A stretch of 64,000 bases of DNA, taken from positions 1 through 64,000 of IMG/VR virus record IMGVR_UViG_3300023184_000090; one strand, 5' to 3'. Positions 5,656 through 24,476 of this stretch are shown one piece after another. The position numbers were made by a program, and so were the translations under genes. The notes under the pieces are model-generated. The model searched no databases. It was not told where the DNA came from and saw only the letters and a program-made list of their open reading frames with translations. The stretch comes from a virus. How positions within the stretch are numbered: the stretch's first letter is position 1; each line of letters starts with the position of its first letter.

Positions 5656-8556
5656 TCAAGTCGCGCCCAAGGATAGTTGATTCTTAATTTCTTCATCTAC
5701 TTCCGATATGCGGCGGCTGATGTGCATGGCGGCTACACGCAGTGGGGGGCCGCTGGTCTTGGCCAGCAAGTCTTTCTTCTTCAAGTACTGCACAGTAAAG
5801 TCCTTCTCAAGCTGGCGCTTGAGCGCGGTGTAGCTGAAGCTGCGGTTTGAACAGAACGCTTTGAGCAGACGCTCTTCAATGAAGAAGTCGATGTGGTCTG
5901 GTGTTACGCCCCACTCTACACGGCCCATGACCTCCCCCCTAGTGGTGTTCTTGTCCACCGCAGTACCGTCACCCAAATGCGCCAAGGGGCCCGCTTTCTC
6001 GCCAAACTTGACGACGACAAACTTGCCTTGGTATTCCTGCGTATAGTTGTTGAGTACGTCCTCGGCACTACGTTTGCCCCCGCTGATGCTCAAGCGCTGG
6101 TTTGTGATCTGGCGGCGGTAGCTCTCCAGTATTTCAGCCAAGGGGAACTCGGCAACCTTGGCGTGTTCGCTGTTCATAATCACACCAGCGGCAATAGCAC
6201 AGCCAACACCTGCCATCCAGAAGCGTTCGTCGTTGGGGGCTTTGTACTCGTCATACATACGCCGCACAGTCTCAGGCACTAAAGTTTTAAGCAGGCTCTC
6301 GTTATCAACCATGTACTGCACAAGCGCTTCCCCCGCCACGGCGTAGTTGTCTTGGAGCGACTTGATGATTTCAATCTCATCGGCATTCCACTCGAGCTTC
6401 TCATCCATGATGTACTCAATAAGCCTGCGCAACTCGCCCTCGGAGGAGTGCTTGCGAACGCTGGTCATGTAATCAATGGCTGGCATATTGGACGACATGA
6501 TGGCAATGGTCTGCCACGTAGACAGGTTTAAGCGCTCTTTGTTCGTGCCCGACTCCATCCTCTCTTTGCCGCGCCCCTCACTCACACTAAACAGTGTGGA
6601 AGGAAACCACTCAAAGTCCGCCCTGTTGTTGGTGGTTATCTCGTCGGTTATCAGCGGGTTGCTGTGCAGCAAACCCAGACGCTGTTGCATGGCTACTGGA
6701 GAAGTGCCTGACCCTGTGCGGTAGTGCGTGGGGTGGCCCCAGATAGATGCCGCGCCATCAAGCGCCAAGGATTTACCCGTGCCCGATTCGCTGGACGCGC
6801 AGTGCACAGTCAGTCCGTACAGGCCAGTGAATCGCATGAGTGGAGCACCAGCACCCAAGAGAATAATCGCCAAGTGATCCCACAACTTGCGGCGAACCAG
6901 CAGCATGATGACTTTGCGCCACACCTCAAGGGAGCCTGTCGGCTGGGTGTTCATCACAATGTTCTCTAGCCCCGGCATGGGCACTTCAATAGGCGGCTTG
7001 TGCGCGGCGTAGATACGTCCCGCAAACACATAGGTTCCGTCTTTCTGCCAGCCGTAGTGCGCTGGTACGTCAATGGGTTTCTTTTCACTGCTCATTTTTT
7101 CCACACAAGACCTCACGTAGTTGTATAAATTTATGTCGTTGCCTGAACCGAACGCAGCCACGACGTTCTGTGCCATCAGGTGTTTGATCGTCTCATCCTT
7201 ACCTGCCACCGCTTTTTGCGCAAAGGTTATTTCCTGTACGCGAGAAGGGCGCATGGCCAGCATGTGAACGATGTGTTCTCCCTGGTTGTTCAAGATGTCC
7301 ACTGGGAAGAAGTCATACGGGAGCAACATGACATGCCGTTTGATTACGTTGCCCTGGGCGTCTTCATCTTCTTTCTCGATGAACACACCACCGCGTTCTC
7401 CATACGCGTACCCCTTGGGGGGTTCAGGGCGCAACACTTTTTTTGCTTTGTCTCCTGTATCAGAGGCAGGTATGTCTACCAGTTTTTCAGTAGTTGTGAC
7501 TGCCGTTTCACGCCCAAGCATTAAGGGGTTGGTGATCTTGCCAAAGAACTGACACCCGTTGCACAGACCCGGATTCTCAGAATCAAACTTTGTGCAGGGA
7601 TACGGGCCTTTGATTTCTGCCATTTTCCTGTGCATGCGGTCTTCATCGTAAGGGTGCAGATTGGACAGCCACACAGCGGCTTTGTCGCCGTCATCGCACT
7701 TCTGCGCAATGCTCAACCATCCACGCCACAGCGGCTCCATGCCATCGTCCTCGGCGTTTTCGGCGTAGTGCTGGAGTTGGGCGCACCCGTTGCCTGCCTT
7801 GGTTTTGACCAAGATGTTTTTGAACTTGGTGACGCTGTTCTCAAACAGCTTCACTGTCGTTGCTGCAACGGTGGCAACTGGGCGTGCGCCGGGAATCGCC
7901 AACTCCGTCCTAGCCTTGGGGGGCAGCATGGGGGGCAACGACTTTAACTGGCTGGCAATGTGCTCGGCTAGTGTGTAAAAGTCAAACGTGTCGCCTTCAG
8001 CCAGTATGCGGACCATGCGCGGCGTGCCGTACTTTTCCTTGTGGTTGAAAGTTTCTGGTACGCGTAACACTCGCGCCGCATCGGCAGTCACGGTCATGTC
8101 GATGTTCAAAGCCTCTTGCTTGCACAAGCGTTTGAAGTTTTCCGCTACAGGTTTCCATTCCGCGACTGTTACATCGGTTGTGAAGGGCCAATAGCAGTGC
8201 AACCCACCGCCAGAACCGACAACGTAGGGCGAACCCAGTAGGTCAATCCCTGTCTTCGCCAAAAACACGTTCAGGGCGGTCGCGGCTTCTTTCTTGGAAG
8301 CGTACCCGTCCATGTCAATAAACAGGGCACGAATGAAGCGCGCGTTGTCTGCTGTGCGTTTCCCCTTGTTTTCAAAGGTGGACACTGCAAAATACACATC
8401 CTTCTGCTGGCGCACCCACTTGTCTATAGTGGCTGGCATCTCCTCTTGGTATTGCACATAAATATGCTCTTTCTTTTTTGTTGATAGCTCTGCCGCACAA
8501 TAAAGCCCGTTGTCTGGGGACGGCAAAACGACCGCTAGAAATTCAAGCGGGGTCAT
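5656..8556 (-). CDS. RepB-type primase fused to DUF927-like replicative helicase
   Basis: 966 aa, the last gene of the leftward operon. The N-terminal ~200 residues show primase-polymerase (AEP/RepB-type) motifs in order: FIDMDGY near residue 80, GSGGGLHCYW near 110 and DAARVLRVPETFNHK near 160. A Cys cluster (CTKF..LCNGC) near 330-345 may bind zinc. The C-terminal half has a Walker A motif SESGTGKS near 585-592 and resembles DUF927 superfamily 3-like ATPases. It probably lays down primers and unwinds DNA at the phage fork together with the family A polymerase encoded upstream. Start ATG is supported by GAAGGA upstream. A second, unrelated primase/helicase is encoded at 21454-23553. Confidence 0.85.
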   Translation of the reverse strand: MTPLEFLAVVLPSPDNGLYCAAELSTKKKEHIYVQYQEEMPATIDKWVRQQKDVYFAVSTFENKGKRTADNARFIRALFIDMDGYASKKEAATALNVFLAKTGIDLLGSPYVVGSGGGLHCYWPFTTDVTVAEWKPVAENFKRLCKQEALNIDMTVTADAARVLRVPETFNHKEKYGTPRMVRILAEGDTFDFYTLAEHIASQLKSLPPMLPPKARTELAIPGARPVATVAATTVKLFENSVTKFKNILVKTKAGNGCAQLQHYAENAEDDGMEPLWRGWLSIAQKCDDGDKAAVWLSNLHPYDEDRMHRKMAEIKGPYPCTKFDSENPGLCNGCQFFGKITNPLMLGRETAVTTTEKLVDIPASDTGDKAKKVLRPEPPKGYAYGERGGVFIEKEDEDAQGNVIKRHVMLLPYDFFPVDILNNQGEHIVHMLAMRPSRVQEITFAQKAVAGKDETIKHLMAQNVVAAFGSGNDINLYNYVRSCVEKMSSEKKPIDVPAHYGWQKDGTYVFAGRIYAAHKPPIEVPMPGLENIVMNTQPTGSLEVWRKVIMLLVRRKLWDHLAIILLGAGAPLMRFTGLYGLTVHCASSESGTGKSLALDGAASIWGHPTHYRTGSGTSPVAMQQRLGLLHSNPLITDEITTNNRADFEWFPSTLFSVSEGRGKERMESGTNKERLNLSTWQTIAIMSSNMPAIDYMTSVRKHSSEGELRRLIEYIMDEKLEWNADEIEIIKSLQDNYAVAGEALVQYMVDNESLLKTLVPETVRRMYDEYKAPNDERFWMAGVGCAIAAGVIMNSEHAKVAEFPLAEILESYRRQITNQRLSISGGKRSAEDVLNNYTQEYQGKFVVVKFGEKAGPLAHLGDGTAVDKNTTRGEVMGRVEWGVTPDHIDFFIEERLLKAFCSNRSFSYTALKRQLEKDFTVQYLKKKDLLAKTSGPPLRVAAMHISRRISEVDEEIKNQLSLGAT

Positions 8557-13602: not shown

Positions 13603-15570
13603 TTAGTTCTTTGCTTCTCCATATCTACGGTGAGCACCACCGTCAGCGGACAAGGGAATACCGGGCATGTAGCGCGGCTCCATAGTCATTTGCTCCAAGA
13701 CCCAAGTCTTGGCTTCTTCCACCTCACTGTCGGGCACGAGCGCAATCAACTCATCGTGCACCGTTCCAACCACGGGGTATCTTTTACCAACCCGCAGCAT
13801 TCCGTCTGTCATTACCACCCGCGCCAAAGCTTGGGTCACATTGTTCGTTATCTTTCCAGCATACAACTTGGTAGCGTCTGGCCCGTATACCCACTGGCTC
13901 CTACCTTTTTCGTCTTTGACTTCACGCAGATCGGGATAGCGCAAGCACATCCCGTTTGGCAATTCTATTTCACCCTGCCTGAATGTCAAGCACTTGTAGG
14001 TGTGTTCTTTGCCGTTGACCAAAGCCGACACCAACAGGCTGGAACACATATCCCAGAATGAGACAACAGGATACGCCGTGGCACGGTATATATCAATGAT
14101 GCGTTTGGCTGCAATGGCATGGTGCACCAACTCCGAGTAGGTGCATGTGTGCGGGATATCCCTTAGTTTGATCTCTGTTTCAGACCACTCCAAGAACCGC
14201 TCGGCCATGTCCTTGTTGACGTTCAACGCTTTAGAGAACGCCCTCTCGTAGCGAACTGGGGGAGCCCCAAGGAACCCCGTAAGAAGCTGTGACGCGAACG
14301 ATGACCAGCCCAGCCCATAGCCGCAGCCCAGTAACGCGCTCTTCGCAGATTGCCGCAGGTCAGGATGAGACTCTTTAGTAAGGCCGGGTATGTTGAACAT
14401 CTGACTTCCGAATGCCGCGTAAGGGTCACCTCCAGCCCGGAAGATGTTGAGCATATCGTCGTAGTCAGCCAGCCACGCGAGTACTCGCGGCTCAATCTGC
14501 GAGAGGTCGCCAACGACGAGTTGGTAGCCATCGGGAGCCATAATCGCTTTACGTAAGAACGACTTTCGCTTGAGGTTTTGCATGTTGATGGCGGACCCCT
14601 TAGCTGCCGTCCATCGCCCAGTCTGAGCACCGTAGTACGAAAGCGGAACCGGGAGCGCACCTCGTTGACTGATGTCAAGGAAGCGCTGCGCTCTTGTCCG
14701 TTCGGTTGTTGACTTGACCTTGAGACGTGCTTCACAAAGGAGCGCAACATCTTCGTTTGCACCATTGAGGAGGGCTTGGAAGAGCGCATCGTCTTTTGCC
14801 AGGGCAAGCGTTTGCTTACCCGTGGTCTTACTGATTTTTGTCGGGGGTGTAACGCCAAGGTTTGTAAGAATCTGCGCAAACTTAGGGTTTGACGCCAGCT
14901 CAGACTCATTGATGTTAAGACGTTGTAGTAGCGCTTCACGTATGTTTCCTTCCTCTGTTAATGCTTGTATCAACATCTTCTGGTCAAGCTGCAACACTGG
15001 GCGTGTGTACATCTTGAGCGTCATGTCAATAAGGTGTAGTTCCGATCTAGGGTAGCCCGCCGAGAGTCTTTCGAATATTTGTTCGCAGAGATATACGTCG
15101 TGCTGACAATACTCAGCAAGTTCTCTTTCTGTCTCAGGCTCAAGGACGGCCAGTCCATCGGTACTATGTACGGCTCTCCCTTTGGGGGGAAGACCAAAAT
15201 CTCCTGCCAGTTTGGCGAGGGAATTGCCAACCTCCACGCCGCGTAAAGCTCGTGCCATTGATAGGGTATCAAAGATGAAGACGGGGTGGCAGTTGTATCG
15301 CCACTCAAGAATGGAAATATCGAATTGGGCGTTATGTGCAAGCACGGCGGTTCGTCCCCAGTCGATGCCAGAAAAGTACTCAGATAAATCTGATCCTCTA
15401 ACCCATTCAATCGGCTCGTCGCTTCCGAACTCATGTGTACAGGCTCCGAAAGCCACGAACTTATTGTCACGTATGTACTCCTCGGTTGTCATCTTGGACA
15501 GCGTGTAGTCCTTGCTACTCCATCTTGTTTCAAAGTCGATGCTCAGTATTCTGTCGAATGGTTTACTCAA
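13603..15570 (-). CDS. Family A DNA polymerase with 3'-5' exonuclease domain
   Basis: 655 aa. Proofreading domain: SIDFET near residue 10 (ExoI), AHNAQFDISILEW near 80-92 (ExoII) and YCQHDV near 158 (ExoIII, DEDDy type). Polymerase domain: motif A DLSQIEPRVLAW near 352, motif B RQSAKSALLGCGYG near 405 and motif C TVHDEL near 600. All catalytic acids are visible, so the enzyme should be active. The start is TTG inside the overlap with the stop of the upstream gene (AATTGAG), with GAGG upstream. It is the main replicative polymerase candidate; there is no 5'-nuclease domain. Confidence 0.95.
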   Translation of the reverse strand: MSKPFDRILSIDFETRWSSKDYTLSKMTTEEYIRDNKFVAFGACTHEFGSDEPIEWVRGSDLSEYFSGIDWGRTAVLAHNAQFDISILEWRYNCHPVFIFDTLSMARALRGVEVGNSLAKLAGDFGLPPKGRAVHSTDGLAVLEPETERELAEYCQHDVYLCEQIFERLSAGYPRSELHLIDMTLKMYTRPVLQLDQKMLIQALTEEGNIREALLQRLNINESELASNPKFAQILTNLGVTPPTKISKTTGKQTLALAKDDALFQALLNGANEDVALLCEARLKVKSTTERTRAQRFLDISQRGALPVPLSYYGAQTGRWTAAKGSAINMQNLKRKSFLRKAIMAPDGYQLVVGDLSQIEPRVLAWLADYDDMLNIFRAGGDPYAAFGSQMFNIPGLTKESHPDLRQSAKSALLGCGYGLGWSSFASQLLTGFLGAPPVRYERAFSKALNVNKDMAERFLEWSETEIKLRDIPHTCTYSELVHHAIAAKRIIDIYRATAYPVVSFWDMCSSLLVSALVNGKEHTYKCLTFRQGEIELPNGMCLRYPDLREVKDEKGRSQWVYGPDATKLYAGKITNNVTQALARVVMTDGMLRVGKRYPVVGTVHDELIALVPDSEVEEAKTWVLEQMTMEPRYMPGIPLSADGGAHRRYGEAKN

Positions 15571-21453: not shown

Positions 21454-23553
21454 ATGCCAATGGGATTTTCGTCTCATATAACACAACCAGATGAATTATA
21501 CAAAACTTTTTTAGCCAATCGCAAATACGATGATAACGACGAGTTTACCTTAGGTTTACAGCTCTTAGACAAGGAGCAAACCAAGCAGCTTTTAGGGCAC
21601 ACGTATGAATGGTCGGTTAAGATTCCGTACTTTGACGTAGACGGCAAAGATACCGGGTTTGTAAGGGTTAGGTTGTTGACCCCTAAGACTAAGATGAAAT
21701 ACTCACAGGCCAGAGCCAGTGGGTCACACATTTATTTTCCGCCTGTAGCGTCATGGCGAACTATCATCAACAATGTAGATGTGCCGATCACCATCACTGA
21801 AGGCGAGTTTAAAAGCTGGTCGATCACTAAAGCTATAGAAGCCGAGGGCCTGCTTAATTCTTGCATTGGCTTGGCAGGTGTGACAAGTTGGACAAGCAAG
21901 AACGGTGTGCACTTACATCCGGATCTTATGCAAATCATGTGGCAAAAGAAGACAAGCTTCGAGACCAAGCATCGCAAGGTGTACATAGTGTTTGACTATG
22001 ATGGTGCCAAGGAAGACGGCGAGCCAAATGAGCAGGTTGCATTTGCCGAGACAAAGCTGGCAGTGACGTTAAGAGGACTAGGTGCAGAAGTGCACCTTTG
22101 TCGCGTTGGGCGGTTCGGCCCTGGCAAAGGTAGCAAGTTTGCCATTGATGATCACCTAGATGCAGGCGGTACACTAGGTCAAGTGTTGGCTAGCACCTCG
22201 GTCATTATGAATGGGATTGACACACTTGATGTAAGGCTGCATGAATTCAGCACTAAGTATGCGTTATACAACGGTGATGTGATTCGTATCGATGACGGTC
22301 ACATCATGCCGTTCCAAAAAGCCAGGATTGACAGTGCCCAGCACATCTATTTGCAACAGGTAACAGTACCAGGCAGAGGCAACCAACCGCCCAAGATCAC
22401 AACACGCGAGATCATCCTGATCGATGAGTACAAGAAGTGGAAGCGTAGATGTGACATCAGGCGCGTTGGTGTGTTTCCGCACTACCAAGGGCTAAAGATC
22501 ACACCGGATGGCAACTACAACTACTTGAACAGTTGGCTAAATGAGCCTGTAGACGGTGATGCGCATGCGTATCTGGAGTTTTGTGACTACTTTTTTAGAG
22601 ATGAACCAGCATTTGCTGATTATTGGCATGACTGGGTCGCTAACGTGGTGCAATTTCCGCACAGGCGAAACAACACAACACCCCAGTTTGTATCGAACAT
22701 TGAAGGCATTGGTAAGTCAGCCGTTGCCGAGTTCATAGCCGAAATGCTAGGCCTTGGTGAACAAGGGCCAGCCATCATCATCGGACCTGACGAGCTCTTT
22801 GGCAACTTTAACGGTATATTTAAGAACAAAATTCTCATAGTGATTAATGAACCAAGCAGTGACCGTGAAGACCACTCAGCCCAGCTAAAGAGCATGATCA
22901 CAGGCAAGGAAATAGCTATCAACAATAAGTATGGTGCTCAATACAACATTGAGAACTACATGAACTTTATATTTACATCTAATAAGCCATACATCACTAA
23001 GATGGGCAACAATGCCAGACGCGAAGCCATCTATAAGCCAGGCAGTCTATCCAACACAGAAACGCACCCCAAAGTAGTCAACCTTATGGCATGGGCACGG
23101 CATGAACGCGGCTTTGGCAAGGTGCTCAACTGGTACTACAACCGAGACATCAGCAACTTTGATCCATCCAAGCCAGCACCTGACACCAAGTACAAGCAGG
23201 TTGCTATATCAGCAGGCCGTAGCCCGATCGAAGCATTTGCCAAAGAACTAAGTGACTGGGTGGTTGATAAGCTTGACGGCTATGCAGCCTTTACGCCGGC
23301 ACAGCTGGAGATACTGTGTGAGAAGTGGGGCCATGACAGCCGCGCCAAGTCGCAATACATCAAGAAAGCCTTGCTTAACTATGCCGATCTAGAGTCAAAA
23401 CCGGTCAATTTCCAAGGCAAAACGATCAGGCTCACGATTTGCAAAATTACAAATCCGCCAACCAAAAACAGAGATCTGATGAAGCATGGTGCCTTGAGCA
23501 AGATGGCAATTGACACAGACGTTGCTGTACGACAAGAAATAGAGCAAATGTGA
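21454..23553 (+). CDS. TOPRIM/DUF3854-type primase fused to P4/NrS-1-like helicase
   Basis: 699 aa; AAAGGACC precedes the ATG. Residues ~20-240 contain TITEGE (~113) and VFDYDG (~180), the Glu and Asp-x-Asp signature of TOPRIM folds as in DUF3854. Residues ~400-560 form a helicase: Walker A SNIEGIGKS near 416-424, Walker B LIVINE near 463 and FIFTSNKP near 506, like the DUF5906 helicases of P4 alpha and NrS-1 polymerase. No AEP catalytic motif is evident. Such proteins often bind the origin; iteron-like repeats begin in its 3' end and continue downstream. It is unrelated in sequence to the primase-helicase at 5656-8556. Confidence 0.82.
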   Translation: MPMGFSSHITQPDELYKTFLANRKYDDNDEFTLGLQLLDKEQTKQLLGHTYEWSVKIPYFDVDGKDTGFVRVRLLTPKTKMKYSQARASGSHIYFPPVASWRTIINNVDVPITITEGEFKSWSITKAIEAEGLLNSCIGLAGVTSWTSKNGVHLHPDLMQIMWQKKTSFETKHRKVYIVFDYDGAKEDGEPNEQVAFAETKLAVTLRGLGAEVHLCRVGRFGPGKGSKFAIDDHLDAGGTLGQVLASTSVIMNGIDTLDVRLHEFSTKYALYNGDVIRIDDGHIMPFQKARIDSAQHIYLQQVTVPGRGNQPPKITTREIILIDEYKKWKRRCDIRRVGVFPHYQGLKITPDGNYNYLNSWLNEPVDGDAHAYLEFCDYFFRDEPAFADYWHDWVANVVQFPHRRNNTTPQFVSNIEGIGKSAVAEFIAEMLGLGEQGPAIIIGPDELFGNFNGIFKNKILIVINEPSSDREDHSAQLKSMITGKEIAINNKYGAQYNIENYMNFIFTSNKPYITKMGNNARREAIYKPGSLSNTETHPKVVNLMAWARHERGFGKVLNWYYNRDISNFDPSKPAPDTKYKQVAISAGRSPIEAFAKELSDWVVDKLDGYAAFTPAQLEILCEKWGHDSRAKSQYIKKALLNYADLESKPVNFQGKTIRLTICKITNPPTKNRDLMKHGALSKMAIDTDVAVRQEIEQM

Positions 23554-23747
23554 TCAAAATTACACTCAAAATTACAAGAAAATTACGAGCCAAGCGCTTA
23601 GAATGTTGTTGTCGCTGTTAGTGTTTTTGTTCAATATTACAATATTACATAATTACATTAAGAAAGTATATATAAGAGAATGAAGTATATGCACTCATCG
23701 TATATAGTCTTTCTGGGGGTTTGTAATTTTGTAATGTGTAATATTGG
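23442..23747. repeat. AT-rich iteron cluster with large imperfect inverted repeat; candidate replication origin
   Basis: AAAATTAC(A/G) occurs at 23443, 23556, 23568 and 23579 (last three 11-12 bases apart). Then ATATTACA/AATTACA copies fill 23632-23658, and inverted copies (TGTAATTT, TGTAAT, TGTAATATTG) fill 23722-23746. Between the two clusters lie GAAAGTATATATA (23662-23674) and its inverted partner TATATAGTCTTTC (23701-23713). The stretch after 23554 has no credible gene. Direct iterons, inverted symmetry and a TATATA core next to a helicase gene are typical of origins; the function is inferred. Confidence 0.6.
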
Positions 23748-23763: not shown

Positions 23764-23870
23764 TCCAACACGGCTGGGGATTGCTCGGTTCGATTCCGAG
23801 GGGACGGGGGAAACACAAACGGCTCAATACCGCCCTATCCTGTTCTGGTCAAGTCCCCATCCGTGTTGGT
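23764..23870 (+). ncRNA. Multi-branch structured element containing a tRNA T-arm-like hairpin
   Basis: Outer stem: CCAACACGG (23765-23773) pairs with CCGTGTTGG (23861-23869), extended inward by TGGGGA/TCCCCA and TTG/CAA. Inside are a 5-bp stem with the loop TTCGATT (23784-23800), exactly a tRNA T-arm, and a second stem GGGACGG/CCGCCCT (23801-23807 with 23830-23836, one mismatch). No acceptor or anticodon arm completes a tRNA. It lies ~160 bases upstream of the terminase small subunit, so it may be a packaging site, an RNA regulator or a processed non-coding RNA. The type 'ncRNA' is provisional. Confidence 0.4.
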
Positions 23871-23914: not shown

Positions 23915-24026
23915 CGCACGGGAGAATGGACAGCCCATGAAATCCAAACCCCACCAACAACCATCACGCATGCGTACTGGGCTAACAAAGTCAAGTGGTG
24001 GTGTACAATCCGTCAAAGAGGTGCAT

Positions 24027-24476
24027 ATGGTAGCGAAACGCGGCCCGGGGCAACCCACAAAGTACAGACCAGAATATTGCGAGCTCGTTATCGAGCTTGG
24101 TGACAAAGGCTATAGTCGTGAGATGATAGCCGTTGAGCTGAATGTGTCTTGGAACACGTTGCTGAACTGGATGGATGCGAATCCAGATTTCCTTGAGGCC
24201 TTGGAATTTGCAAAGATGCGTGAGATGGTGTATTTCGAGAAGCTAGGGCTCGCGTACATGGTCGAGCAGCCGCAGCAATCGAAGCTAAACACATCGCTCT
24301 GGTCACGGTCGATGGCCGCTCGATTCCCAACTAAATATCGCGAAAATTCTAAATTCGAAGTCACTGGTAAAGACGACAAGCCCATTCAGATCGATGTTGT
24401 TCATGACTTTGCACAAGAGCTTATGAACGACTTGCTGACTATCAGGCAAGACGGTGCCAAGTCCGACAATAGCTGA
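24027..24476 (+). CDS. terS: Terminase small subunit
   Basis: 149 aa from MVAKRGPGQPTKYRPEYCE, with AAGAGGTG just upstream; an earlier in-frame ATG at 23937 has no ribosome site and would run through the leader. RGPGQPTKY followed by an HTH (GYSREMIAVELNVSWNTLLNWM) is the common small-terminase form, which recognises the packaging site in phage DNA and presents it to the large subunit. The gene overlaps the large subunit start by 23 bases. The structured element directly upstream may be its target. Confidence 0.85.
   Translation: MVAKRGPGQPTKYRPEYCELVIELGDKGYSREMIAVELNVSWNTLLNWMDANPDFLEALEFAKMREMVYFEKLGLAYMVEQPQQSKLNTSLWSRSMAARFPTKYRENSKFEVTGKDDKPIQIDVVHDFAQELMNDLLTIRQDGAKSDNS

Follow-up and report, generated by a model that had tools for sequence, protein, structure and literature searches.

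The alpha protein of phage P4 is a primase-helicase that recognizes its own origin repeats (ori/crr). The origins of SaPI/PICI satellites immediately follow the initiator gene and have two iteron sets with an AT-rich region between them (PMC6092414, which also mentions P4 alpha and its cognate ori), and the SaPI Rep protein recognizes its downstream iterons via its C-terminal domain (PMC7581432). Likewise, the SCCmec helicase Cch2 has a C-terminal domain that binds in vitro to direct repeats located beyond the end of the helicase gene (PMC7581432). The NrS-1 polymerase of a deep-sea phage carries a prim-pol domain at its N-terminus (PMC7102993).

The locus described here lies within a 64,000-nucleotide stretch of viral DNA (the window), which covers positions 1 to 64,000 of the 74,995-base IMG/VR record IMGVR_UViG_3300023184_000090. 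Based on sequence comparison, the repeat cluster at 23442–23746 is very probably the replication origin of this phage, and its probable reader is the C-terminal domain of the primase-helicase whose gene lies immediately upstream. A candidate replication origin had been proposed here in an earlier note on the same DNA, a reading that the comparison supports well. The note had also been aware of no described origin with such a layout for this phage type. For this phage group, a literature search of partial coverage returned no report; however, SaPI/PICI origins share the arrangement, so the layout is already known from satellites. The new part is the occurrence of a satellite-type layout in this group of tailed phages, together with repeated switches of specificity. 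For these uncultured tailed phages the cluster provides a concrete candidate origin, and it places the satellite-type rep-ori layout in phages that have their own terminase genes.

The present module shares with the SaPI/PICI rep-ori an origin that immediately follows the initiator helicase gene and two iteron sets that flank an AT-rich region, and the likeness extends to the fold of the initiator (SaPI5 primase-helicase, Z score of 16.4). By the layout features tested, the two would work alike. Unlike SaPI/PICI modules, this one is found in a 75-kb tailed-phage record beside terminase genes, and it has three intergenic iteron sets plus one in-gene copy. The DnaG/TOPRIM-like primase half of the initiator may be a further difference. 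As far as searched, the phage is not a PICI satellite: its record is 75 kb long, encodes its own terminase pair and is without a PF00589 match. Cch2 is similar in combining a C-terminal domain with direct repeats downstream of the helicase gene, the binding being a prediction in the case of this phage, but it differs in its three AAGTG iterons and its separately encoded primase. P4 alpha, compared by protein type and not by repeat sequence or layout, is alike as a primase-helicase with its own origin repeats. The NrS-1 polymerase differs at the N-terminus, which is a prim-pol there whereas the phage protein matches the DnaG polymerase domain.

The repeat cluster and its layout

A pattern search for CAAWATTACA identified seven copies in the 74,995-base record, every one within 23442–23746, and the reversed control pattern gave 0 matches in the same record. 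Five copies are forward (starting at 23442, 23555, 23567, 23632 and 23640) and two are reverse (23722–23731 and 23737–23746), in agreement with the repeats in both directions described by the earlier note. Near-copies at 23579–23587, 23648–23657 and ~ 23730–23735 bring the total to ten iterons: one in the helicase gene, three in a left outer set, three in a left inner set and three in a right inverted set. The in-gene iteron occupies 23442–23451 (plus strand) within the helicase coding sequence, and most relatives also carry an in-gene copy of their own class. The left outer set (23555–23587, plus strand) comprises 23555–23564, 23567–23576 and the diverged 23579–23587. Their 11–12 bp spacing, reported previously for three direct copies, is correct for 23555/23567/23579, and the iterons of the left inner set (23632–23657, plus strand; 23632–23641, 23640–23649 and 23648–23657) are spaced by 8 bp. 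The right inverted set (23722–23746, minus strand) comprises 23722–23731, ~ 23730–23735 and 23737–23746. The earlier note had overlooked the middle copy of this right set, the arrangement in three sets and the fact that the in-gene copy is conserved.

Equal density of AATTACA elsewhere in the genome had been named in the earlier note as evidence against an origin. The full 10-mer is absent outside the cluster, but the loose 7-mer is not rare genome-wide: AATTACA was seen 10 times in the window against 8.5 expected, 5 of the 10 falling in the cluster. Because AATTACA alone occurs at chance frequency, the signal comes from the longer motif and from its clustering. The commonest 6- to 10-mers of the region exceeded chance with p values of 0.001–0.0085 (0.1–0.85% of draws) in first-order simulations modelled on the cluster region itself.

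An AT-rich stretch sits between the left inner and the right inverted sets. The proposed duplex-unwinding element at 23615–23714 (no strand assigned) overlaps the left inner set. No other 100-bp segment in the 75-kb record is less stable as a duplex, and the record's stability minima at 40 and 60 bp also fall within this element. A conserved box, TATATAGTCTTTCTGG, with the pattern TATAG..TTT, is located at 23701–23716 (plus strand), ~ 20 bp before the right iterons. The inverted repeat GAAAGTATATATA / TATATAGTCTTTC, previously taken as the centre of the symmetry, is present with 82% over 17 bp, but among relatives it is its right half, the TATAG..TTT box, that was seen recurring.

The intergenic position just upstream of the terminase operon would also suit an operator that controls transcription of the late (terminase) genes, with the helicase or another phage protein binding to it. 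Such a role is improbable, since the sole promoter-like match lies outside the iterons (23982–24009) and is at chance frequency, and since an operator would need neither the lowest duplex stability in the genome nor a copy in the upstream gene. Repeats that flank a central segment resemble in outline both an attachment site with integrase arm-type repeats and a partition centromere. These two readings are the least probable of those considered: the 75-kb record, which is possibly incomplete, contains no match to Phage_integrase (PF00589), a search that serine recombinases fall outside, and none to ParB_N (PF02195), a search that other partition proteins fall outside.

Cumulative GC skew, proposed by the earlier note as a check, proved uninformative. 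Its minimum is near 20 kb, 3–4 kb from the cluster, at a point where the genes change direction too, so it cannot place an origin. The phage encodes a second helicase-like gene, with a DUF927 domain, at 5656–8556 (minus strand); DUF927 has been linked to SaPIbov1 Rep (PMC7581432). A second origin behind this gene was considered and rejected, as its 3′ end is without an iteron-like cluster.

The primase-helicase and its C-terminal domain

The proposed initiator is a 699-residue primase-helicase (21454–23553, plus strand) with matches to Pfam DUF3854 and DUF5906. It comprises a DnaG/TOPRIM-like N-terminal half, an NrS-1/D5-type helicase and a C-terminal winged-helix-like domain. In a fold search with the AF2 model (mean pLDDT of 75.6), residues 9–255 match the DnaG polymerase domain with a Z score of 14.6, and the best match of residues 258–664 is the C-terminal region of NrS-1, with a Z score of 19.8. 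The helicase part also matches ASFV PrimPol and poxvirus D5/E5. NrS-1 is the only sequence match in the PDB (E value of 9e-11). PHROG primase families are matched as well, and DUF5906, PHROG and the fold matches all indicate a P4-type helicase domain. The description of the upstream gene in the earlier note, a P4/NrS-1-like TOPRIM-helicase, agrees with DUF5906 and with the fold matches to NrS-1 and DnaG. No confirmed relative of the primase-helicase was found among the host genomes of the genome_contigs set.

The proposed iteron reader is the C-terminal domain, residues 591–699, encoded by 23224–23550 (plus strand), which covaries with iteron class. In the AF2 models its elements follow the order helix-strand-helix-helix-hairpin-helix, as in winged-helix domains. 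The isolated domain was modelled with a mean pLDDT of 84.7, and its fold search yielded weak winged-helix matches only (best Z score of 5.9), with no single family named.

The best model is a self-loading initiator helicase that would read its own origin, as described for the SaPI/PICI rep-ori modules. Protomers would bind the left and the right inverted iteron sets, and two helicase rings would assemble face to face over the intervening AT-rich stretch, which would then open. The N-terminal TOPRIM part would make primers, to be extended by the phage family-A DNA polymerase (13603–15570, minus strand), and replication would start at the cluster.

Conservation and concerted switching among relatives

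Two scans of IMG/VR viral contigs yielded 96 loci, counting the window, whose sequence extends far enough past the 3′ end of the helicase gene. The earlier note had held that repeats not conserved in close relatives would speak against an origin; the cluster is found immediately after the same primase-helicase gene in 96 of the 96 loci, with letters that switch by lineage. Both this condition and the one on repeats elsewhere in the genome were thus decided in favour of the origin, the latter by the full 10-mer. The commonest iteron core of a locus is ATTACA, GTTACA or GTAACA, a class assigned from 300 intergenic bases only. GTTAC and GTAAC are reverse complements and inseparable as 5-mers, and in-gene copies were therefore counted as 6-mers. 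The assigned core is present in 4–9 intergenic copies in all loci except L073 and L075, each of which mixes three ATTACA with three GTTACA. The left outer set is present in relatives in an orientation that varies between lineages, and the distance from the last left to the first right iteron is 69–72 bp in 32 of 46 measurable loci, orientations and spacings both resting on 5-mer cores. In 47 of 49 distinct loci the locus-wide minimum of duplex stability over 60 bp falls at the putative origin, and the TATAG..TTT box is found in the same number. An IHF site was rejected as a constituent: about one third of the 49 distinct loci have a match to its consensus between the left sets (reverse strand), and the window has none.

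One clade, comprising L025, L029, L031 and their relatives, differs from the others in the C-terminal sequence of the helicase, beginning at about residue 621, with the cluster still at the same place. In two known phages with distant homologues of the helicase, AXL_3 and ctUtU524, the stretch examined just after the gene contains no iteron cluster; the top window of AXL_3 is a CTTCCTC repeat and the top windows of ctUtU524 are GC-rich repeats.

On a helicase tree built from residues 60–595, that is, without the C-terminal domain, iteron class changes at least 10 times. All iterons of a locus switch together, the in-gene copy included: a copy of the locus's own class is found within the gene in 15 of 17 ATTACA, 14 of 14 GTTACA and 15 of 17 GTAACA distinct loci. 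The in-gene segment holds no GTTACA in GTAACA loci and no GTAACA in GTTACA loci, and control coding segments contain nearly no matching 6-mers for the two G classes. Where the in-gene copy encodes Val, the synonymous choice between GTT and GTA follows the iteron class. The concerted switching and this codon choice point to selection acting on the DNA, and hence to a shared binding protein. The natural switches, three classes with at least 10 changes, form a series for learning how a winged-helix-like initiator domain reads iterons.

Association of iteron class with protein distance was evaluated by partial Mantel correlation controlled for the distance over helicase residues 60–560, in which the permutation models phylogeny incompletely. 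Helicase residues 630–690 are associated with class (r = 0.278, permutation p = 0.0002) and residues 560–630 weakly so (r = 0.104, p = 0.002). The covariation control was the terminase small subunit TerS (23937–24476, plus strand; phrog_309, E value of 1.6e-18), for which the distances cover the 135 alignment positions that the window TerS fills from KYRPEYCEL on, excluding the protein ends and relatives' residues opposite gaps in the window TerS; it shows no association (r = 0.0, p = 0.48). That iterons and C-terminal domain of the 699-residue protein covary supports the earlier suggestion that the helicase may bind its own origin. Since across relatives all the repeats switch in step with the far end of the helicase, the origin is most likely here.

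The near-identical loci L064 and L067 illustrate the change: the iterons are GTTACA in L064 and GTAACA in L067, and 10 of the 15 helicase differences between them fall within residues 649–674. The corresponding distances are 0.169 for the helicase C-terminal part, 0.006 for residues 60–560 and 0.000 for TerS over its 135 compared positions. The pair also bears on whether the cluster is a packaging (cos/pac) recognition site bound by TerS, a reading prompted by the TerS/TerL terminase pair encoded directly downstream. A packaging role is improbable, since iterons differ between L064 and L067 while TerS is identical over the compared segment, iteron class is not associated with TerS distance across the loci, and one iteron copy lies inside the helicase gene.

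DNA identity between L064 and L067 is 63–84% from about − 200 to + 200 around the helicase stop codon and mostly 90–98% elsewhere. The drop spans the end of the C-terminal coding region and the intergenic region, so both may have been exchanged together, as one recombination block instead of by stepwise coevolution. More tentatively, returning to the origin reading, the reader domain and the origin could form a linked cassette that is repeatedly exchanged or co-evolved and changes origin specificity. The pressure might come from satellites or co-infecting relatives, to which the same initiator would otherwise be open.

A neighbouring element downstream of the cluster

At 23765–23869 of the window, a long inverted repeat, CCAACACGGCTGGGGA / TCCCCATCCGTGTTGG, surrounds a hairpin that resembles a tRNA T-arm. 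This element is not part of the origin, and it is a candidate structured RNA. ARAGORN and Rfam at gathering thresholds detected nothing in the window, and the element itself gave only a chance-level match to RAGATH-36 in Rfam. A near-invariant core recurs in two of the IMG/VR loci, L105 and L106; alignment of these with the window contains 33 predicted pairs, two of which are changed on both sides. In L105 the element precedes a likely terminase pair. The ACGGGGG..TACCGCCC part is also found in L109, where the parts are reordered (120–480): the long-stem arms come first, followed by the GGTTCGATTCC hairpin and the TACCGCCC part. Further downstream, at ~ 23970–24000 of the window, GCGTACTGGGCTAACAAAGTCAAGTGG is a remnant that corresponds to the 3′ end of a small ORF located between the putative origin and the terminase in L008; in the window, most of this ORF thus seems to have been replaced.
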